Below, piece after piece: positions 16,831 through 64,000 of a DNA stretch of 64,000 nt. Origin of the DNA: Marchantia polymorpha subsp. ruderalis (taxonomy: Eukaryota; Streptophyta; Marchantiopsida; Marchantiales; Marchantiaceae); NCBI GenBank assembly GCA_037833965.1, contig AP031352.1:3576501-3640500 (forward strand). Reading direction: 5' to 3'. Every line of letters begins with the position of its first letter. The stretch's first letter is position 1. The notes below the pieces were generated by a model. That model saw only the letters and a list, made by a program, of their open reading frames with translations, searched no databases and had not been told where the DNA came from. The translations under genes and the position numbers were made by a program.

Positions 16831-16832
16831 AG

Positions 16833-17108
16833 AAATGTCTAAACTCAAACCTTACCGTCGGGTACTGTTCGTGACTTAACATAGGACGTGGGAGACAAAA
16901 GGAGCTAATATGTCTGAACTCAAACCTTCACTTCAGGGCTGAATGTCGGAGAACATGCGGGAATTGGGAGAAATGTCTAAACTCAAACCTTACCGTCGGG
17001 TACTGTTTGTGACTTAACATAGGACGTGGGAGACAAAAGGAGCTAATATGTCTGAACTCAAACCTTCACTTCAGGGCTGAATGTCGGAGAACATGCGGAA
17101 ATTGGGAT
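16833..17108. repeat. 138-bp tandem duplication next to tRNA-Pro
   Basis: The unit at 16833-16970 recurs at 16971-17108 with only a few differences. Each unit is itself built from two related halves, because a TGTCT(A/G)AACTCAAACCTT motif occurs about 74 bp apart within each copy, giving four occurrences in all. The second copy ends seven bases short of the tRNA gene. On the tRNA's strand the array lies immediately downstream of the gene. Confidence 0.9.
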
Positions 17109-17114
17109 GTAAAA

Positions 17115-17186
17115 GGGGCATTCCGAGAATTGAACTCGGGACCTCTTGCACCCTAAGCAAGAATCATACCACTAGACCAAATGCCC
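17115..17186 (-). tRNA. trnP-AGG: tRNA-Pro (anticodon AGG)
   Basis: The minus strand gives a 72-nt cloverleaf. The acceptor stem is GGGCATT paired with AATGCCC, followed by discriminator C. The D arm contains GGTCTAGTGGTATGAT. The anticodon stem CTTGC/GCAAG encloses the loop TTAGGGT with anticodon AGG. The T arm is CCGAGTTCAATTCTCGG. There is no intron. The internal A and B boxes are present, and four T residues directly follow the gene on its own strand, a minimal RNA polymerase III stop. It is a nuclear-type plant tRNA-Pro and appears intact. Confidence 0.95.
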
Positions 17187-20418: not shown

Positions 20419-23400
20419 TCAGATCCTGCCGTCCCATTTACATGCGGTTGAAGCAAACAAAGCTGAATGAGCACTGGGTTGCTGCGAGGGAGAAAATTTA
20501 GTGGGTGCTGATTCTTTTTTATATTTAACACCCTGAGTCTTTGGACAGGCTTCCATTAGCATCTGCACAACATCGCGCATGGTAGGTCTGTGAGACGGTG
20601 AATAATTTGTACAAAGAAGGCCGACTTTCAGAACCAACATCATATCCTCCTGCGCGGAAGCTCTAATTTTCCCATCGAGGACTTCCAAGGCTCCTGCTTT
20701 AGTTTCAATCTTCTTGGTCACCCACTTCACGATATCCCCATCTCCAAACTCGGGTTCGAGAGGCTTCCTCCCGGTTACGAGCTCCAAAAGAACGACGCCG
20801 AAGCTATACGTGTCGCTCTTTTCCGTCACCTTCAAAGTGTATCCATACTCTGCCAGAAATCCAAAGAAAAAGATAAGTCACTACGCTCGACTACGACACA
20901 TGGCTCTCGCAGATGAAGCACATTACAGTGGATACCCAGGAGCTGATAACCAACCACTGTCAATGAATGACACCGACACCGTATCCCAAGGATATGATAG
21001 CATGTGAAGCAGTGATTAGTGGACTTCCTACTTGAGTGTCGGGCTAGATTTTAGTAAATCTTCACAAAACATCTACGAACAAATTGGTACAGCTTGCCAC
21101 CACAAATAACTGTAACCGATGTATAAACTTGCCCGTGATTTTTATGTTGCGAATAATTTGGAATAAAATTAAGACTTATCCCCACGACCTGCAAACGTCT
21201 TTCGGCTGGCTATCACTCATGAAGCGTTCAACAAGAGAAGGTCTTGAACAATCGGCAATCATGCCTGGGTAGTCACTATGAGATGGCATGCGTGAGAGAG
21301 GTTTAATATGACAGAATGATATGCCAAAGTACTTACCGGGAGCTATGTAGCCAAACGACCCTGCTACGGCAGACATAGATTCCAGCTTCTCAGGTGTCAC
21401 CTCCAACAATTTCGCCAGGCCGAAATCGGCCACGTGAGCCTCGAAGTTGAGATCCAACAATATGTTGTTTGATTTGACGTCCCGATGCACGATATGCGGT
21501 ACACAATCGTGATGCAAGTACGCAAGACCTTCAGCCGCTCCGACAGCTATCTTGTATCGAGTGGGCCAATCCAAAATGGAAGAAGTCTTCGGACTATGCA
21601 AAATATCCCCGACACTGCCATTCGGCATATACTCATACACCAAGAGATTGGACTTCTGATTTGTGCAGCAGCACAGCAGCTTGACGATGTTCCGATGCCT
21701 GATTTTCCCGAGAGTTTCAACTTCGGCTTTGAACCCATTGTCATGCCTAGCCTCGCCTTTGGGTGAAGTCCAGAGCTTCTTCACAGCCACGGCCTGCCCA
21801 TCGCTAAGCGTGACTTTGTAGACCTTCCCTGATCCCCCACTTCCGAGAACATTGTCTTCATCCAAGCTCTCCATCACCTCCTCCTCGGTGAAACTCACTT
21901 TCTGAAATGAAGTGAGGCTCCATGTCAGATCTGGATCCTTGTTGTTCCAGTATTGATAAGCTGTGCGGTACTTTCTCCAGAAGAGACACGCCCCGACAAG
22001 CAGAATGGTCAAGGCCGCACCAAATGTTCCGATCACGACCCACGCGACCCCAGCAGAAGACGTAGATTTCTTGACCCTGCTCCCACCACATCCCGCGCTG
22101 GACAAACATAGCGCAGGGTTTCCATCGAAACTTGATTCGAGCGGCGATTCCGCGAAGGGTTCGGGAAGGACCCCAGAAAGGTTGTTGTAGGAGAAGTTGT
22201 AATCAGACAAATGGAGCTCGCCTAGTTCGGGAGGAACAGGCCCACTTAACTTGTTATGAGAGAGATCGAGGACGTTGAGTGCGGGTAAGCTGCCAAGCAC
22301 GGAGGGAATTTCACCTACCAGTTGATTTCCTGAAAGATTCAGTGTGCTCAATCTTTCGCATTGGCTAAGTGAGGTTGGAATAGGCCCTGTCAAGTCATTG
22401 TTCGCAAGCTCCAGCTTGGTGAGAAAGTTCAAATCTCCGAGCTCCTTCGGCAATTCTCCATGGAAGTTGTTGTTGGAGGCGATAAGGATAATCAAGTTGG
22501 CAAGACTGCCGACTTGTGTTGGAAAGCTTCCGCTGAAGAGATTGTTGTTCACATACAGCGCTTCCAACATAGACGTAGTCACTTTCTCAAAAGTGATGTC
22601 CCCGTCGAGTTCATTGTTTGACAAGTCCACGTGCTTCACGAGGGGATAACTCCACAACCCCACGGGCACGCTCCCATTCAGCTTGTTGTTCTGCAGACGT
22701 ATCCTCTGAAGAGAAGGGCAGGACCCCAGATCCTCGGGAATATCTCCTGATAGCTCATTGTCGAATAGAATCAGAGTGTCCAAAGCGCCACCAGTGCAAA
22801 GACCGCGCGGTATCAACCCGACCAGGGAATTGCTTGAGACATCGAGCGTTTGGAGCCGCGAAGGCTCACCAAGTCTAGCTGGAATCTGTCCTGTGAGAAG
22901 ATTGTTGAAAAGTTTCAGGTCATACAGTCCGGGTAGCGAACCTATCCCGGTCGGAATGCTACCATTGAGCGAATTTGTGTGGAAGTGAATGAGCTCCAGA
23001 CTAGTCAGAAACGAAACTGATTCTGGAATAGGGCCGACAAGCTGGTTCTCAGACAGGTCTATCTCCACGAGGGATGTCAGGTTCCCAAATTCCGCAGGAA
23101 TTTGTCCAGATAATTTGTTCTGATATAGTTGCAACTCCCTGAGGTTCGGAAGAAACATCAGCTCGCGCGGAATGCCGCCTGTCAGAGAATTGTTCGAGAG
23201 GTCAAGCACGACGAGCCGCTTCAGCTTGCCAAGTTCAGGGGGTATGCTTCCGGCCAAAGAATTATCTTCGAGATACAGGGCTGTCAAGTTCGTCTCCCCC
23301 AGTGAAGCAGGAATGTTTCCTTGCAGTAGACACCAGGATAATCCTAGAACTTCCAGGTGCTTCAGATTCCCCAACTCGACTGGCAATGAACTGTTGAAGG

Positions 23401-24010
23401 TGTTCATGTGCGCCTCGAACAGCACCAACGTACTAACGTTCCCGATATGAGACGGAATACTGCCCTCGAGAAGATTTGCTGAAAGATCGAGGTGCGTAAG
23501 TTTCGGGAATTTACCGTAACTTTCGGGGATGTGTCCGGAAAAGTTATTGTACGACAGGTTCAAAACGAGCAGCGATGGCAGTTCCCAGATATCGACAGGG
23601 AGAACGTCGACAATCAGATTGTAGCTTAGGTCGAGAAGCTCCAACGCTGCACACTCCAGAAATCCTGTTGGGATAGTACCCACTAAGTAGTTCCACGACA
23701 CATTGAGCTTACTGAGCTTAGGGAGCTGGCAAAGAATTGCTGGCACTGGCCCTGTGAGGTTGGCGTTGTGAAAATTGAGTTCCACTACCGATGAAGATTG
23801 ATCACAGGTGACTCCGTTCCACGAACATGGAGTCGCATCAGCGGCATTCCAGTTCTCCAACACTCCATCCACGTCCTGCATGCTGGCCTTGAAAACCAGC
23901 AAAACTTGGCCGTCGGTCGAAAGCCCTCGGACAGGATAAGGAATATGCAACCACAAACATAGGACAACCATCCGCAACAGTGCGCCCAACGTTCCCACGA
24001 GCGCTGCCAT
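20419..24010 (-). CDS. LRR receptor-like kinase, HAESA/HSL type (subfamily XI), 1034 aa
   Basis: Two exons, 21337-24010 and 20419-20849, joined in phase 1 exactly inside the Glu codon of the kinase APE motif; the total of 3105 nt ends in a stop. The first ATG (24010) precedes a signal peptide. Next come the LRRNT cap (LENWNAADATPCSWNGVTCD), about 20 plant-type LRRs, a membrane helix near residues 656-680, and a Ser/Thr kinase. Kinase landmarks are all present: glycine loop GSGGSGKV from G723, ATP-anchoring Lys744, HRD at 842-844 (an RD kinase), DFG at 862-864, and APE ending at Glu892. The sequence FTEEEVMESLDEDNVLGSG before the loop and TEKSDTYSFGVVLLELVTG after it are characteristic of HAESA/HSL and the related CEPR receptors, which perceive secreted peptides at the plasma membrane. 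The single intron in the activation segment is conserved in this subfamily. The ligand cannot be told from sequence. Confidence 0.93.
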
Positions 24011-26100
24011 CTCCACAGCTCAGCCCACAGTAGCGGCTTTCATTCGAGCAACATCATACAAGATCGCTGCACTGTCGCAAGACAGTGACTCTGTGTCCTT
24101 CCGGTTTTAGGACGCAGTACTGCTGCTGCTACCCCCATTGCGGCGGAAATTTTGATCCTGGTCTCCTTCATACCCTCGCTCAAGACAGCCTCAAGTTTAC
24201 GGGACGATCGCGCACCGGGTTCTCCTCTCCTTCGCTGTACGTTCTCTCGCGTTCCCGCTTCCAAGAAGGAAAACCGATAAACAACACCAGTGAAGTTTCG
24301 CACGAGTTAGCACGAACGGCAGCAAATGTTGGGTGCACAGCTCCCGCACAAGAAGAGAGCAAGAAGAGGGCCGCCCGGGCCGGGACTGAGTCCCAAATGC
24401 GTTCTCGGTCAAATGAAATCACAACGGAGTTCGCATGGCTAGTAATCAATACGGCAAAGTGCGAGCCAATCTTGCCTTGCTACTAGTCACCGACATCCGG
24501 CAAGTACGGCATATGAGAGCCAGCAGCGCTGCACACTATGGACTGCGCATCGCAGAGAGCATGTAGGCTTCGAACTGAGGATGCTGCTGCAGAATAATAA
24601 TCATCGAGCAGCAGCAGAGAATCGCGAAGGTGGAGATGTACCTCTAGTCCAACCCGAGCATTGCATCTGACACCACCGACATCCGAGGTCCCAACGAATG
24701 AATCATATTCGCAGCAGCCAACGCTGCGCCTGGGCTCTAGCAGTAGCACGAAGGCCGCATCTCTCACCACACTCTCTGATCTCGCGCAACCTGCAGAAGC
24801 TCGTCTCGGTTATTCGAAACAACGGAGCCTTTTCCCAGCTGTAAGTGATCAGTCGCCCGTCCCCTGCCGCACTGTCTCGTTCCCTCCGCACTCTGCCACG
24901 TCCTACCCTGACCCGACAACTGCAGTAGCCTCTTCTCACATCCTCGTAAGTCTCGTAACTCCGATCTGCCCCCACGTACACCGCTGCGTCAGCTCAAGAC
25001 GCAGTCGCATGTGCGAATCCATCACCTTTCACACACCGCATAGATTATGATCCGACGATGCACAGGCGACCGGAAACGCGCAGTCCTGCACTGAACCTCG
25101 TCATCCTGCTACGTTTCCAGGCCCACAACTGCGGTACACTTAGGGGTACTCAGGCGTGGTTACTATGCGCCTGCCGAACTGAAGCACGACAGGAGCAACG
25201 CCGTTAGAACTTTGAGGTCAGTCCGAGGTCCCCGTGGGAATCACTGTATATGGCAGTGTAGTGTCGGGTTTCCTGATAACGGATGGCCCGATCGGAACCA
25301 TCTGGCCCTGCGAGAGAAACTCCTACCGGTAGCAATTGACTTCAGCAAAGTCGACTGAATTCGAGATCCTAACTGAAGGAATACGATCCGTTCGTCTCAA
25401 AGAAGACACGTGGGATGTAATTTTCGGATTTAATTACTCCTGTGCTGATTTAAGACGACTCTCGATGCATCCGTTCGATTAATCTATCCACGGCTGCGGT
25501 AGGCCTGCACGTCTAGCTCAGCTGATAGTGTGGCAATGCGTGTGCTTTGAAAACAACCAGAGTTTTAAGTACAAACTATCTGTTCCATGTAAATGTCGCA
25601 TCAGATCGGCGCCTTAAAAGAATTGGAATTAATCTTCCGCATCATTCACATTGTATTATTCCCGTACACCTGGAAAAAAACCAGGAGTTGTCGTCTCACT
25701 TTCCTCATTGTGTAATTCCAGCGCGAAAGAATAATTCCGTGTAAGCGATAGGTCTTAATCATGTTTCTTTTCTTGCTCAAAGAAGATTATCTTATGGGGG
25801 TTAGACCGTGTGGTTTCATTTATTAACAGCTTGAGATATTTTTCAGACTTCTTCTAATGGATTGGGCCACTTATTAGCATTGACGTTTTGGGTATGACAA
25901 TTTCAAAAAAAAACGCAATCCCTATAGATAGCTTCACACTTCATAAACTTGAGGAATCGACTGCAAGGTACTAGGAGGTCTTTAAGGAGATTGCGCGGAA
26001 AGTTTACACATATGGCTCATCAATGTGGTGATACAGGGGTTTCGCGAATCAAGACGAACTTTTCAATGTACACTATATACACCTTCCTCTAGTCACCAAA
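24011..26100. other. kinase 5' flank and intergenic
   Basis: Contains the promoter and leader of the receptor kinase. Balanced base composition to about 25.5 kb, with overlapping short open frames on both strands between 24.0 and 25.05 kb, none recognisable. No clear TATA element was identified for the minus-strand gene. From about 25.75 kb the sequence grades into the next AT-rich desert. Confidence 0.4.
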
Positions 26101-55351: not shown

Positions 55352-57549
55352 TTAGTACTGTTTCAAAGTTCCAGTTCCTAAATTGTTGTAAGCAGCACCC
55401 AATCGATCCTCATTCATATAGAAATTTACTTCCGATGGTGATAAAATGCGAATTCCGCGTACCGAGCTCACGAACTCGCTGAAACAGGACACCCGCAAGC
55501 ATAGTCAGTTAGAAGATTTTTAGTGCTGACTAGCGCGAAGAATCTGCCTGGTGAACAAAGCGGTGAGAAATGTGAGAAGAATCACGAGGTAATCTTCAAG
55601 AACTCTTGAAACCGTAAAACAAACTACGGTAAGTAAGTAGCTGTTCAATAGGGCGTAACATGCTCCAATTTCAGACATTATGAAACAAACAGCGAAGTGC
55701 AGCATACTCACTCCCAGGGATCATCGCCTACAAGAAGGATGTCGTTTTCGTTGTCACGAAAGACCAGTTGCCACCCTGACCGCTGATCCAGTTGTCCTTC
55801 CAAGTTGAACATCCGTGCGAGTTCACACCGAAGTTCGTCGTAATTGCTGAATCGGGTTACATCCAATGCTCTGCCTATAGAACCTAGTTTGTAAACCTGC
55901 ATAAGTAGGAGGAAAAATAAACTTTTCAGAAGCTCATGAACATTTAATGCTTGTGGACTTCTACCATTTAAGAGTTGATGCTTCACATCTGTTGTCACGA
56001 ACTCATCAATACATTACGGTACCTATTTCGCTTTCTTGACAGAAGACTCTTGTAGAGATTATTCGTCAAGAGCAGTTGCAGTAATAAAAAGGCGTGTGAT
56101 CCTGTCTCTTGACTTTCATCATTATACAAACTTAGCTCGACATTGAACTTTTATCCCTAGAACAACTGGTTTCAAGAGGAAATAAATCCGAAGTATGCAC
56201 AACCATGGAACTTCGTCAAACCTAAGCCTTTTTTTCTAGACTAGGCCAAAACTAGGATAAACGTGTTTGTAAAGTTCAGCAAAGTAACAAGTACTGCTTC
56301 TGCTCATATCTTGACCTGCACTGATTTCTCCAGTTGAGATTTTAAAAACAGGAGACAATTTCCAACGTAAAGAAGTAACTGGAAATGGTTTAGAATCATA
56401 GACTCTCAACAATAGCTGTTTCGAACATTCTGATATTTGTAATCAGTGAGAAATGAACACATATAAAGATATGTCATCCTGTAGTGATTCCAGCAGGAAA
56501 AAATGTGACATTTTAGACAATTCAGACAGTGTATCATACCTTAGTGTAGGTCCTCAAAGGTTTTGGTGGAGGAGCACGTTGGATGAAGCAATTTTCGTCG
56601 GGCAGATTCACGGGACAATTTCCCACAATAGCGGGTTGAAGAAGGAGATCTGCTCCACTACTTGACGGGCAATAAGGTCCAGGTTGGAGCATCCGCCGTC
56701 CAGTAAAGTCGTTCTGAAACACAGGTTTGCTATTGTTGAGCCTTGGCATACTAGAAGAACCACCTTTAGGACCAATTACAGAAGAAGATGAAGATCCCGA
56801 CACCCCATATGGCAATGGGCTTTGAGGATCCCCCAATATTTGCTCCTGGTCAACAGGACCATCCCTGAATGCCCCAGAAGGACATGCTTGGTATGGTAAT
56901 GCCGTGAGACCACCCTGAGTTGTCAGATCGCTCAAAGCTGGGGAAGAGTAGAGGGATACATTTTTCCCATTCGAAAGGTTTTGCCCGTTAGAAAGGTTCT
57001 GCCCATTGGAAAGACTAGCTCGTCCAAGGCGAGAGCTAGATGTGGGTTGCGTTTCCAGCTCCCGCATTGATGAATACCACGCAGCAGACGCCTGTAGCTC
57101 TTGTAAAACCAAACTATTTGACGTTCCCGATAGACCTGATTGCGACTGTTGTATCACAGTACTTTGACTGGAACCAAGCATGTTCGAATAGCGATCTTCG
57201 TCAGATTCAGGCAGCAATGTGCTGCCCTGAGGCAGTCTCTGTGGCAAGACGCTTTGTAGAGGGTAGGGATTGGAGGAAGAAGAAGTAGGAGAATGTCGTA
57301 AATCTGATTCAGCAAAAATTGGAGGAGGCCTGAATGAGAGAGGCAAGGGAGGAAGGCTGTTGACCGCTCGACTCGAGTTTGCCAAGTCTAGATACGGCAT
57401 GTGCATTTGCATTTGCTCCGCTTCCAATTGCTGATGCTGATACTTGAGAGGCTGGACACCGTTAGCAAGCTGGTTTGTATGCTGAGATGACTGTTGAAGC
57501 TGCTGCTGATGCTGCAGCTGTTGTTGCTGCAACTGCTGCTGTTGTTGCA

Positions 57550-57580
<31 letters not shown>

Positions 57581-59048
57581 ATGCTGCTGCTGCTGTTGTT
57601 GTTGTTGTTGTTGCTGTTGCTGTTGCTGCTGATGTTGTTGTTGATGTTGTTGTGGTTGAGACGATGCTAAAGTCTGTGGAGTTTGACAGGGATGCATAAT
57701 CTGCTTAGAAGATTCAATGTTACGCATGTCGTGCAAACTAGCTACTGTCATAGCTCGCTGCTGTAAATTCATAGGAGTATTGAGAGGAGTTGTCGGTGCT
57801 GCAGGTTCTAATTTCTGCTGCTGTAGTCGCATCCAGTGATCCGCACTCATAGGACGATAATCAAGAGCTTGGTTTAGGTTGTCCTTCTCCACATTGTCAT
57901 CTGCCCGGCCTGGAATCCAACGTCTAGAAATTTTATGACTCTCGTGAATCACTTCTTCTTCCCCGGAGTAAACATCTTTTCTCCTCTTTCCCTGGAAAAA
58001 CGAATCTACCATTAGAAATTTGGACGTTAGGACAAATTTTGTAGCCCATTCAAGCCCGTAAATTTTCCCAGCCCGCAAGAATTCCAAGTTTGCAACCTAT
58101 CTAGTTGTTTTCAGGGGAAAACGATTTGAATTCATAGCTCCACATTTGTGTGGTTGAAGCTCAACGTACTGTCTCGGATTGGACAGCAAACTTTAAGAAC
58201 AATAAGCATGCTCATACTGAGATATCAATTCTCGAATGAACACTCAAGACAGAGCTATAAAGAAATCGTTTTAATCAAGATGTCCATGGATGGACACGAG
58301 GGAACTAAGATAGTAACTTTCAATCTGCAAGAAACCGTAAATGCCGCCTATTGTGCTTGCGAGGGGCTCAAGCAGTTGTGCAACAAGGATCGATGCAACT
58401 GCTGGCTTATTCACAACATCCTCGTTTCCAACCCACACATGCTTTTTAACCAGGAAGCCAGGTCTATCTGTAGAGAGCTAATCGTAGGAATGGGAACGGG
58501 TTCCAAACGCGGAAAATTAGAGACGGGATGAAAGTGTTCGGCGCGTCACAAGCAGATAAATTTCATATCAGCAGCACTGAGAGAGAGAAGCTATGTGTCC
58601 AACTGCAACTGTAAGAACGAGCTAGGTTCGTTTTAAACAGAGCGGCATCTGATCCAAAAGCTCTGTGATTGCTGACCGGATGCAAAGTCAAGACGTGGAC
58701 TCAAACTGTCCTATAAATTACATACACTACATCCCACATGAAAATCAAGGTTATTTTATCGGGTTTAACTAGAGAAGGACTAGGTCGGCTCATTTAGCAA
58801 ACAAGATAACGGATCTCCAAGCGCATGCATCCAGTAATACATCGTCTAAAGTATTAGTTGTTTGACGGTACCGCAAAAGGTTGCTTCCGCAATTCGGATC
58901 AACAATGACAACTCCAATGTGACCTGACAAATGGTCCTGAATAAGTTCAACATGATGTATGTCCGTACAGTGAAAATGCGAACAAAAAGGCTGACCAAAA
59001 GGAGCAACTTACTCCAGAGAGGCGGTTTTGAAGTCCTGTGGGATCCAT
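55352..59048 (-). CDS. ncARF: auxin response factor without DNA-binding domain (class D / non-canonical ARF), 599 aa
   Basis: The four exons in coding order are 59013-59048, 56540-57991, 55712-55896 and 55352-55478: 1800 nt in all with matched phases. Exon 1 encodes only [12 protein letters not shown], with a GTAAGT donor and strong start context (G at -3 and +4). Exon 2 is the middle region: [13 protein letters not shown], a Gln-rich block (about 118-185), then Ser/Pro/Asn-rich sequence. Exons 3-4 complete the PB1 (domain III/IV) module: [17 protein letters not shown] with the invariant Lys496, the acidic face D544-x-E546-x-D548, GDDPWDEFV, and [14 protein letters not shown]1 mediates contacts with Aux/IAA and other ARFs; Gln-rich middle regions mark activating class A ARFs. 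I found no B3 or flanking domain on this strand up to 64 kb. DBD-less ARFs (class D or ncARF) derived from class A are known in bryophytes. Expected in the nucleus as a modulator of the auxin response through PB1. Confidence 0.93.
57480..57665 (-). repeat. polyglutamine-coding CAA/CAG tract in the ARF
   Basis: Within exon 2 the minus strand is dominated by CAA and CAG codons, giving glutamine runs of up to about a dozen residues interrupted by His, Leu and Ser. Synonymous CAA and CAG are mixed, which lowers slippage compared with a pure repeat. Length variation between strains is likely. Confidence 0.9.
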
Positions 59049-59076
59049 GACACCTGCTGTAACTCGCCAGTTTTGA

Positions 59077-59184
59077 TCAGCGAGACTGTCTCCTTGACCA
59101 GCCGTAGGGCAATGATGTTTCGGAGGGCACTAAACTTGAGCGCCAAGCTTTAGGAGACCTTCGAGTTTTGCCTGACTTCCGCAT
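59077..59184 (-). promoter_or_regulatory. 35-codon upstream ORF in the ARF leader
   Basis: An ATG at 59184 (G at -3) opens MRKSGKTRRSPKAW and so on, a basic 35-residue frame ending in TGA at 59077-59079. This is 28 nt before the main start codon and in the same presumed first exon. If the transcript begins upstream of 59184, this uORF would be met first by scanning ribosomes and could restrain ARF translation, as described for several plant ARF mRNAs. The transcription start is not visible in the sequence. Confidence 0.5.
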
Positions 59185-61000
59185 CTCGAATGCAACGTGT
59201 ATAGAAGAATCAGCAGACGCAGAGAGCGACTAGATCATAAACCAAGTTCATTTCGAATCCAAAATCTACTCCTGGAGGACAATAGCCATCCTCATGTAGC
59301 GCAGCTGCAGCTGCAGCGCCAGCCCTGCTCTCAGCCTCCTCCCTTGTCAGAACAGTAACGAAAGCGTACTCAAATCCGTGGGCTCAGGGCGTGAACTATC
59401 AGAGAACGAAAACGGTCACCACCTTTAGTAAATGGAGAACTACGATGAGGGTGGATGAGGTGGGGCGGGTTGTGGTGCGTGGCACATTGCGCACTTCCGG
59501 TGCAAATAACCGCAGAGAAAGCTTGTGAGTAACATGTCAGTGTCTTCGTGAGCACCATACCAAGGACTGTCCTCCTTTCCCTGTCTCTCCACTTCCGAAG
59601 CCTGCCAGATGTTCACCTTCTCCACAAGCAACGCACTACGCCGAGCCAGCCCCACAGTCTTCGAGCTCCGACTTCCTATCTGTCCTGATATGACTTGGTT
59701 TCAACTCGAACACGACCCGCAGTGCATTCACTAAACAGAGAAGGCAGTCATCATCGTTCAGCCCAATCCAATCCGGTCAAGATTAAAACAACCAACACTG
59801 CTCGTTGCCACTCTACTGCCCTCTCTCTTTCTGTATCTGTCTGTGTGTGCGCTCAACGACTCAAGTCGCCATCCTTCTCCGCCCCTGTCCAACCTCTCGG
59901 CCCGCTTCACCACTCCACTCGTTCACTTCGCTGCCAGTCAAAAGTGTCTCCGCGCACCTTTCTCCCTGTCCCCCATTCTTTCCCTCGTCTCGAGCTCGAG
60001 CTCTGTCCGGGCTCGTCTCAGGCTTGCGCTGTGTAGCTTAGCTCCGTGGCATTCTCCATCTTCCGTGGCCGCACAAACAGACACAGACTCAAGGGGTACT
60101 CGAGTGCGAGCAGTCACAGTAGAATTGAGGAAAGGAAGTGGCGTTGAGTAGTATCGTATGCATTCGAGTGTTTCATAGCTTAGCTTGCCATCAGTGGCTG
60201 GCCAGTTCACATGGCACAAGAGCACCTACGATTGCTGCGCTGCCTACCGTCCCGTTCTGCCTCTGGGATTTGACTTCTCCATCTTCTTTCAGGTTTGATG
60301 CTGCGCCTGCTTCTTCTGGGCACGCAACATCCAGACAGACGGACAGCCAGCCAGCGAGCCCAGCCCAACCCAACCAGCCGCCCTCCTGCACTCGCGGTGA
60401 TCTCCATAACTCATCGCCTTTCAATTGCCAATCTCGTCACTTCTCCCCTCCTCTACTTTGGCCTGCAAGATATTGCTGCTATATCTAGCAGTCCTCTGCC
60501 CTTGCCTCGCCTCCCTCTGTCCGGCTGTCTGGGCTAATTCGGACTCTCCCTCAAATATTGAAAATCTTTTACGACTGATCGACAAAATCGGTCCTTTTTA
60601 TCGGCGACCACAGACTCCGATCGGCACCATCGACATCTCTCGCCGTTCCTTGTCTCTCGCGGAGGACGAATATTGCGGGTCGGGAGGTCCTCCCCTTCTC
60701 CCTCTCTTTCTCTTTTGCCTTCCCTCCCTCGCAGCCCTCTGCTGTCCTCCACTTTCCGTATCCTACAGCCAATTCTGGAGACAAATCTCTTTACTTCATA
60801 TTTGTCCCTATGTACACCTGGCATCCGACGTGTGTTCTTAACTCTTGTCGCCTGCGGACTACCGGCTCAGTCCGTTCCGACTTTCTCATTGGCCCTCGGT
60901 TAGATGCTTTCTCCTGCTGCTCTTTTCCTCCTCTACTACCATGCGGTCTGTTGACCGTATTTATCAAACCCACCTCCTATATCCGTGTGGCATACATGTA
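59185..61000. promoter_or_regulatory. ARF upstream region with long pyrimidine-rich plus strand
   Basis: From about 59560 to 60960 the plus strand is markedly C- and T-rich with no long convincing ORF; overlapping frames in all phases are by-products of that composition. Such strand-biased CT-rich sequence is typical of moss 5' leaders and core promoters. It could be the leader of a plus-strand transcript running toward the window end, the divergent partner of the ARF gene, or an unusually long promoter tract of the ARF. Confidence 0.35.
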
Positions 61001-64000
61001 TGTATGCGAATATATTTATGCATGCATGGCAGGTACATTGCATGAAACCATGCTAGCGAGCTGAAATACCACGTGACATGGCCTCTTGGTCTGCCACCAT
61101 CATCGGATGAGTTTCATCGGATGACACCAAATGCACAATGATGACGATCTGGATGACTCATGAGTGTATGGGGTCATATGTCCATGACAGGTTATCCATC
61201 TACGGCCGAAAGGCCGTATGATCACATATGGCGAATGGCGAGAAAGAACGTCCATTAATGCGTTTTCCTTGCGAACATTCTTCATTCAATTTCCATTCTC
61301 TTTTCCTATTGTTTACCTCCTACTTTCTTTTACTTCTTCTTTTCGATTTTTCTAATATTTACTGGGTTCTCCTCTTTTTCTTATATAATTGATTTGTCTT
61401 GAACGGTTTTATTGGAGGGAATGCTGTTGTATGGTCAGTGTCTCCCTCCTTACAAGAACTCTGCAGTGTGGACTGTAATAGGCCGTTTCGAATCTTATCA
61501 GACGCTCAACTTTCTTCACATGCTCCGGGACCGAAAGCTTTCCGTACTTACACTTGATTGAAGACCTAATCAAATCACGTACAGTATACCCCATTAGCTG
61601 GAGCTGCAGGACTCGAGCCAGAAGGAATTTAGGCGTGGATGTACGAGTGTCATGAGACAGAATGGGCGCAATGAGTAGGTCTTTGTGTTGTCATCATCCT
61701 TCTATCGGACTTCTTACTAACCTCTCGAGGCACAAAATTTCAGTCTTCGTTGCATGATATATTCAATCGGCTTCTACTAGCTGGTAATGTTCATAGTCGA
61801 GGTTTTGCATGTGGTCGTCGAGAATCCTTACTTCCTCCTACTGCTCCTCAAGCTCTGCGCAAGACATGGTTTGAATCTCCTGAGGAATGTATTATGATTT
61901 ACCAGAAGCTTGTCGAAATGATAACATCTATCATTGACTACCACCATAACTCGCTATTGTTCTTTACGACACACTGATTACATGTATCCCTGACAGGGTA
62001 ACTCCTATGTTGACTGTCTAATGTTGTAACTTTGTCTACATGATTTCTATATTGTTTTACTTTCCTTGCCTCTACGAATTCTTAATCTCCAGTTATTTGG
62101 TGTTTCAGCTTCGAGCCGCATCGCTGCACGACCTCAACAACAACAAAAGCTATTCAAATTTGCATCCTATAGAGAAATTGTTTTAGCACATTTGTAGCAG
62201 CCTTACCGTCCACGCTTAACTGCTGAATATTCCTTCTACCCCTAAAATCATGCTTCATTAGTTTTTCTTATCCGCCTGAGAAAGGGGCATCGCTAACATC
62301 ATCACGGTATGAGTGACATGATTACGGTACGGCACTGGAAAGATTTAGGTCTCACGCAAAGATAGCGCAGTATCTCATGTATAGACACTATACAGCTTGA
62401 GCCTTAAACAACAGGAATGGAAGGTCTTTTCAATACGTCCTTCAATTTACTGTACCATGGGTAGCAACCACTGTGGAAACTCTCGTCCTGTCATCAGAGG
62501 AGATATGAAGTCCAAAGCAGTTTCTAAAAAGACTCGCAGATCATTCGTTAGAACCAGTAAAGGGGCGAACCAAATATATAACAAAAAGGATGGGAAGACC
62601 ACATCAAGTCGTACAGGGATCATTCGTTGGAACATTTGTCGTATCATCCAAGGAAAGTTTTGTCACGTCGATGTAAATGTAATTCGCTTTTTAGCAAACA
62701 CATCTTGTCATCTGAGGCCTATCTTGAAGGATCCTTGCTCTTTTCGTGGGTCCACTACCCATTCCTTTCGGTTGCGAATGCCACATGTCAGACCGAGCCA
62801 CTTCGCAGATCGTGTTAAAATTGCCATGGATGACCATTACCAGACATGACAGTGGCGTTGGTTCCGCTCGTTTGTAAGAAAACCTGAACATGAAACACTC
62901 AGACAATGAGAGAAACCCAGTTGGCCAGAATTAAGATAGTAATCAGATTCAATGCTGACCGGATTAAACGCTGCACTTAACACCAGCATGTAACTTGGTT
63001 TACCTGAACCGTGCATCTGCACGAGTCAACCTAGCCCTTAAGCTTTAAGTTCTCTAGAAGTTCATAAAATGTCCACTTGTACGATGTTTGATTGACCGAA
63101 GTGTTCAAAAATCAGTAGACATCACATCATCGTCAGTCCAATCTATGCCCTTCTACACAAAATTATGAGTATAAAATCATGGCTCTTCTCCCCCAATATT
63201 TTTTTGGGTTTCAGTTGATGTTCAGTTTGATTAGATGAACAAAGAAATTAATATAAGCATTCTGGACAAATGTGAGAGCAATAGTCAGCTGCTAGTGTCG
63301 GAAAAAAAACGGAGTTATTGAACCTGAACCGTAAGAGAACTGCCGTTTGCAAGATACTAGGAGTGAGAAATGGTATAAGTTTTCGACATGATATGAGAAC
63401 ATGCTATTCGAAGTTTCGTACATGGAGACATACTAGTGTCACATGTACCTGTAGGTCCTTCGATTTCCAAAAAGAAAAATCCTCGTAAATATTGGATCGC
63501 GCCGAGCACCCTACACAACTATGGCCCTATTTTAAGAATCGAAGAAAGGTCAGATCCTCTCGTCCACTGAGGGCACTGTAGTCTATGTAGCCGGTCTTTT
63601 ATCCATCCCAGTCTCCCACGCTCCCAGTAGATCATGATGAGAGGCTTCTTCTCTTATTTATTTGCTTCTTCCATACGCCAGGGCAGCGACAACGCGACAT
63701 AACACCCAACGGAAGAAGGCGAAGAAGCTCTTCAATGAGCCTGCAACCTGCGAGATTCAAGATGGATTGTTGACTAAACACATTTAGTAGATACACAGAA
63801 AGCTTTTTGCCTTTGACCAGATCAGACAAACTGGTAGATCAGATTGCAAACTGTTGCCTCCGATCCTGGTAGCATTGCTACTCGCTTTCCGACTTCCCAG
63901 ATTCAGAGAACTCATGCCCTCTTTACTGCAGGTAGAGGGAGTGACAAGCAGTCCTATGCTCGACGATCCTAAATAAAATGGAAGACAAGAGCGTTCATGT
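61001..64000. other. right flank, unassigned
   Basis: Balanced to mildly AT-rich. Plus-strand frames at 61750-61977 (75 codons) and 62397-62849 (150 codons, basic, Ser/Arg-rich) and a minus-strand frame at 63632-63829 are the longest; none is recognisable. A small hairpin with a GAAA tetraloop (TACGGCC and GGCCGTA) is at about 61201-61218. Confidence 0.3.

Follow-up and report, generated by a model that had tools for sequence, protein, structure and literature searches.

The window, by which we mean the whole 64,000-base stretch analysed, contains no N and has a G+C content of 38.6%. Its minus strand carries a leucine-rich-repeat receptor-like kinase gene, apparently of two exons (20422-24019), with a 947-codon open stretch (21179-24019) matching LRRNT_2, LRR and kinase families and the end of the kinase at 20422-20877, as well as a tRNA-Pro (AGG) at 17115-17186, eight bases from a tandem repeat of two copies with a period of 138 (16831-17107). 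On the plus strand, the open stretch 34139-35032 matches the UreF family of urease accessory proteins (Pfam, 2.8e-24). The gene of interest here is an ARF gene, the four minus-strand exons of which, when joined, encode 599 residues followed by a TAA stop (sequence and splice check). Its features, in the direction of transcription, are:

59130..59132, minus strand: in-frame TAG preceding the predicted start codon, read in the sequence
59013..59048, minus strand: predicted first coding exon, 12 residues, phase-0 donor (sequence and splice check)
57992..59012, minus strand: intron 1, GTAAGT...TTTTTCCAG (splice check; donor score 5.85 under an approximate matrix)
56540..57991, minus strand: exon 2, Q-rich middle region, with basic KRRK near its start and RTYTK at its end, where PB1 starts
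55897..56539, minus strand: intron 2, GTATGA...TATGCAG (protein aligned to PDB ARF5 and ARF7 across the junction)
55712..55896, minus strand: exon 3, bulk of PB1 (aligned to 4CHK, ARF5, and 4NJ6, ARF7; AUX_IAA found in the raw frame)
55479..55711, minus strand: intron 3, GTGAGT...TTTCAG (joins DDPW-D-EFVSSV; compare DDPWEEFV of ARF5)
55352..55478, minus strand: exon 4, last part of PB1, followed by the C-terminal tail and the TAA stop (splice check and PDB alignment)

The four-exon model given in the initial annotation, with its coordinates, frame and length, was reproduced: the exons measure 36, 1452, 185 and 127 bases, the entry phases (0, 0, 0 and 2) are consistent, and all three introns are of the GT...AG type. 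Exon 2 contributes 484 codons within a 520-codon stretch of the open-frame list. The T content is 19-29% in the four exons vs. 33-37% in the three introns; lower T in exons than in introns is the usual plant pattern. The alignment of PB1 to the ARF5 and ARF7 chains in the PDB spans the exon 2/3 and exon 3/4 junctions and thus lends homology support to both.

Sequence comparison identifies a PB1 domain of the ARF type at the C-terminus. Among PDB chains, the protein is closest to ARF5 (E = 5.5e-30 for 4CHK and 8.4e-30 for 6L5K) and ARF7 (4.2e-28 for 4NJ6), whereas the matches to Aux/IAA proteins are much weaker (1.3e-6 for IAA4; 0.071 and 0.091 for IAA17). The ARF matches are more than 20 orders of magnitude stronger than that to IAA4, so that the closest PB1 does not place the protein among the Aux/IAA family. 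There were 26 PDB matches up to E 1, six of them ARF or Aux/IAA chains, 19 over the Q-rich part, which were taken as compositional, and one (2G6T, 0.88) touching PB1. In Pfam, AUX_IAA (3e-9) was the only family above its cut-off; the nine other matches in the whole protein were below theirs and were set aside. In the PDB alignment, the TYTKV lysine is kept, as are the aspartates of a further 14-letter stretch. At the corresponding sites, alanines are present in 4NJ6, and in 6L5K an aspartate replaces the lysine; we take these to be engineered changes that block one face. Both faces of the PB1 domain in the window protein look intact, with the key charged residues kept, in agreement with the intact PB1 claimed previously. 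A tblastn search of the window at E 1 for a second PB1 copy matched only the exons of this gene, and a pattern search of the protein for LxLxL, DLNxxP and RLFG (RLFG, not KLFG) found none of these motifs.

Neither B3 nor Auxin_resp was detected by Pfam in the protein or in any of the three read-through minus frames of 57992-64000 (limit E 10 for both, at which the HMMER filters nevertheless remove most matches above about 0.1), or in the three plus frames of 55-64 kb (E 1). The B3 domain of a canonical class A ARF was thus not found within the window scans, and the earlier statement that the minus strand is devoid of a B3 signature up to the window end holds for these three frames, although short exons could escape. 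The matches that did appear in the upstream frames, namely Hepatitis_core (3.5), DPBB_1 (0.092) and Pep1_7 (0.13), were all below their cut-offs and were rejected. As a control, the raw genomic frames of the gene itself were scanned: AUX_IAA was recovered at exon 3 (about 62 codons) with an E-value of 0.0071, below the curated cut-off of the family, and the last exon, of 42 codons, was missed. Given that an exon of about 60 codons is seen and one of 42 codons is not, short B3 exons could be missed as well; furthermore, the window includes 4.95 kb ahead of the predicted ATG, and B3 exons could lie beyond that.

The predicted start codon at 59048 is strong, as originally noted, with G at both −3 and +4 and the in-frame TAG at 59130-59132 located 81 bases ahead; the stop-to-stop frame extends over 58947-59129, and a splice acceptor may lie between the TAG and the ATG. 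First-exon candidates were defined as all stretches in 57992-64000 that run from an unsplit ATG to a donor, end in phase 0 and have a donor scoring 4 or more under an approximate matrix. Among the 11 candidates thus defined, three had a higher donor score than exon 59048-59013 and one had the same score, so that this exon was placed fifth. Of the three candidates whose end is not above 59600, it was the best, and it shares with a single other candidate among all 11 the presence of both start-context bases; its donor ranked 165 among the 3539 GTs on the strand. The homology searches lent this exon no support: residues 1-98 had a sole PDB match, SLX4IP (E 0.6), which was taken as chance, and residues 1-91 had a single Pfam match, below its cut-off. 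We therefore consider the 12-residue exon, as predicted from the sequence, a likely first coding exon, and the precise definition of the N-terminal exon, claimed in the initial annotation, was not borne out. On the minus strand of 59049-60100, 15 ATGs precede the predicted start. Most of them open short frames, of 2 to 62 codons, which would form upstream ORFs within a long leader if this region is transcribed. Auxin-response hexamers upstream of the gene were listed and given no weight as evidence.

Glutamine makes up 17.6% of residues 1-490, with a Q-rich run at residues 126-179, in accord with the Gln-rich middle region described at the outset. The corresponding values reported for two moss ARFs without a DNA-binding domain (DBD) are 14.0 and 14.5%, and Q-rich middle regions are found in most activating ARFs (PMC2708152). 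The Q-coding repeat tract at 57498-57658 is perhaps variable in length between strains. Part of exon 2 aligns, in order, with stretches of Arabidopsis ARF6 and ARF8 that are perhaps inexact, the 'ARF6' stretch being maybe a mixture; the alignment scores were reached by 1 of 2000 shuffles for ARF6 and by 0 of 2000 for ARF8. As a lead only, from these possibly inexact comparators, exon 2 may keep the first part of a middle region of class-A type, with the truncation located just before it. The RRWIPG motif of exon 2 resembles the KRPWxPG border motif, but it is not within the aligned part, has a different spacing to the next shared motif, and was given no weight; a literature search on class-A border motifs yielded nothing related. 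It is possible, albeit doubtful, that the locus displays the origin of clade D, i.e. that a class A ARF lost all DBD exons and gained a tiny, unrelated, in-phase first exon. If so, with exon 2 still bearing the start of the class-A middle region, the break point would be fixed at the border between the DBD and the middle region.

A Q-rich, PB1-bearing ARF without detectable B3 or Auxin_resp fits the published N-terminally truncated, ncARF or clade-D ARFs. Our main reading, to which we assign a probability of about 0.88, is that the gene, presumably from a non-flowering land plant, encodes a DBD-less ARF of the ncARF/clade-D kind that would act as a docking activator; the class D assignment is the best reading of the domain make-up and the sequence, with PDB chains as the only plant ARF comparators. 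A class D/ncARF protein affecting auxin output only through protein contacts had been put forward in the initial annotation, and this interpretation is only partly supported: the domain make-up fits published members, and the precisely defined first exon, which was part of the claim, did not hold. It is very improbable that the gene is instead a full-length class A ARF, its DBD exons lying beyond 64000 across a very long intron and the 12-residue exon being false or alternative. Such an arrangement would be compatible with the end of the window at 64000, with a first exon too short for a test of homology or coding bias, with an acceptor at 57992 that could accept any upstream phase-0 exon, with the 10 other ATG-to-donor candidates and with the capacity of short exons to slip past the Pfam scan. 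However, about 6 kb of the minus strand upstream of exon 2 gave no match to B3 or Auxin_resp, the predicted start has a favourable context and an in-frame stop ahead, and DBD-less ARFs of the same design are already known. A milder alternative, which is compatible with the main reading, is a DBD-less gene translated from elsewhere, either from another first exon or from an ATG in intron 1 or exon 2. Four of the other phase-0 candidates have an equal or higher donor score, and the frame of exon 2 is open upstream to 58096, with an ATG at 58012-58010 just 5' of the acceptor; nevertheless, the position of exon 59048-59013 at the head of the candidates near the gene, its start context and an acceptor (TTTTTCCAG) that is strong by eye make this alternative rather unlikely.

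If the gene is a clade-D ARF, the protein would dock, through head-to-tail PB1 contacts, on clade-A ARFs at auxin-response promoters and contribute an activating Q-rich middle region, and Aux/IAA proteins could occupy the same PB1 domain until auxin triggers their destruction. By analogy with the published moss and liverwort members, such docking on DNA-bound clade-A ARFs, together with the action of the middle region, is the likely mode. Moss ARFd1 requires its PB1 domain as well as its middle region; its binding partners include ARFa8 and IAA1a, while it interacts only minimally with ARFb1 (PMC10299833). A clade-D protein could also act mainly by titrating Aux/IAA repressors, and so sparing clade-A ARFs, rather than through an activation domain; this alternative, which differs from the main reading in mechanism only, is one of the two models of Mutte et al. 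(PMC5873896), and is in line with the binding of IAA1a by moss ARFd1. In moss, however, PB1 alone or with a swapped middle region failed to restore the auxin response (PMC10299833), and the long Q-rich middle region is kept in the window protein. By the same analogy, titration appears to be the weaker alternative to docking, and we regard it as unlikely.

DBD-less ARFs have been described previously in mosses, liverworts and clubmosses; the present gene leaves the known picture unchanged and is largely an ordinary find. Paponov et al. (2009) reported four DBD-less ARFs, two from moss and two from Selaginella, in which the middle region is Q-rich, and proposed that such proteins act by dimerising with canonical ARFs (PMC2708152). 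The name ncARF was introduced by Mutte et al. (2018) for a group that diverged from class A, is retained in liverworts, mosses and lycophytes, and is absent from hornworts (PMC5873896); a hornwort genome paper lists NCARF among the genes lost in that group (PMC7027989). Marchantia ncarf mutants show reduced auxin responses while rhizoid formation is still promoted by auxin (PMC5873896), and are described as free of an obvious developmental defect (PMC10299833), suggesting that the role of the gene may be modest. Pattern scans for relatives elsewhere, one each, gave 0 matches in viral contigs and 60 matches in prokaryote contigs, 0 of which were confirmed. Clade-D ARFs are of interest because they allow one to ask whether PB1 contacts alone are enough for a transcription factor to function. 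The clean gene model adds one probable member to this clade, possibly annotated already, perhaps as the NCARF of a liverwort, and its exon borders can be used to ask how the DBD was lost; the excerpts of further literature searched contained nothing on the exon structure of clade-D or ncARF genes.

Among known systems, Aux/IAA and ncIAA proteins share with the window protein the presence of PB1 and the absence of B3, but the PB1 of the window protein matches that of Aux/IAA proteins (IAA4, 1.3e-6) far more weakly than that of ARFs. The class A ARFs supply its best solved PB1 matches (ARF5 and ARF7); they have a DNA-binding domain, however, and none was found in the window gene. PpARFd1 and PpARFd2, the clade D proteins of Physcomitrium patens, likewise combine the lack of a DBD with a long middle region and a C-terminal PB1 (PMC10299833); we take Phypa_171888 and Phypa_170581 (PMC2708152) to be the same two genes. 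PpARFd1 is the longer protein, its cloned coding sequence reaching 2,250 bp and T653 lying in PB1, as compared to the 599 residues of the window protein. According to the excerpts of the same report (PMC10299833), PpARFd1 has, shortly ahead of PB1, a lysine that adjoins a splice site at the Y643 stop, and the exon 2/3 border of the window gene, TYTK|V, is similar. The resemblance is a loose one: Y643 and T653 of PpARFd1 are ten residues apart, whereas no threonine is found ten residues past either of the nearby tyrosines in the window protein. MpNCARF of Marchantia polymorpha is also DBD-less, derived from class A and a positive factor in the auxin response (PMC5873896, PMC6174852), and the window gene may be MpNCARF itself or its orthologue.
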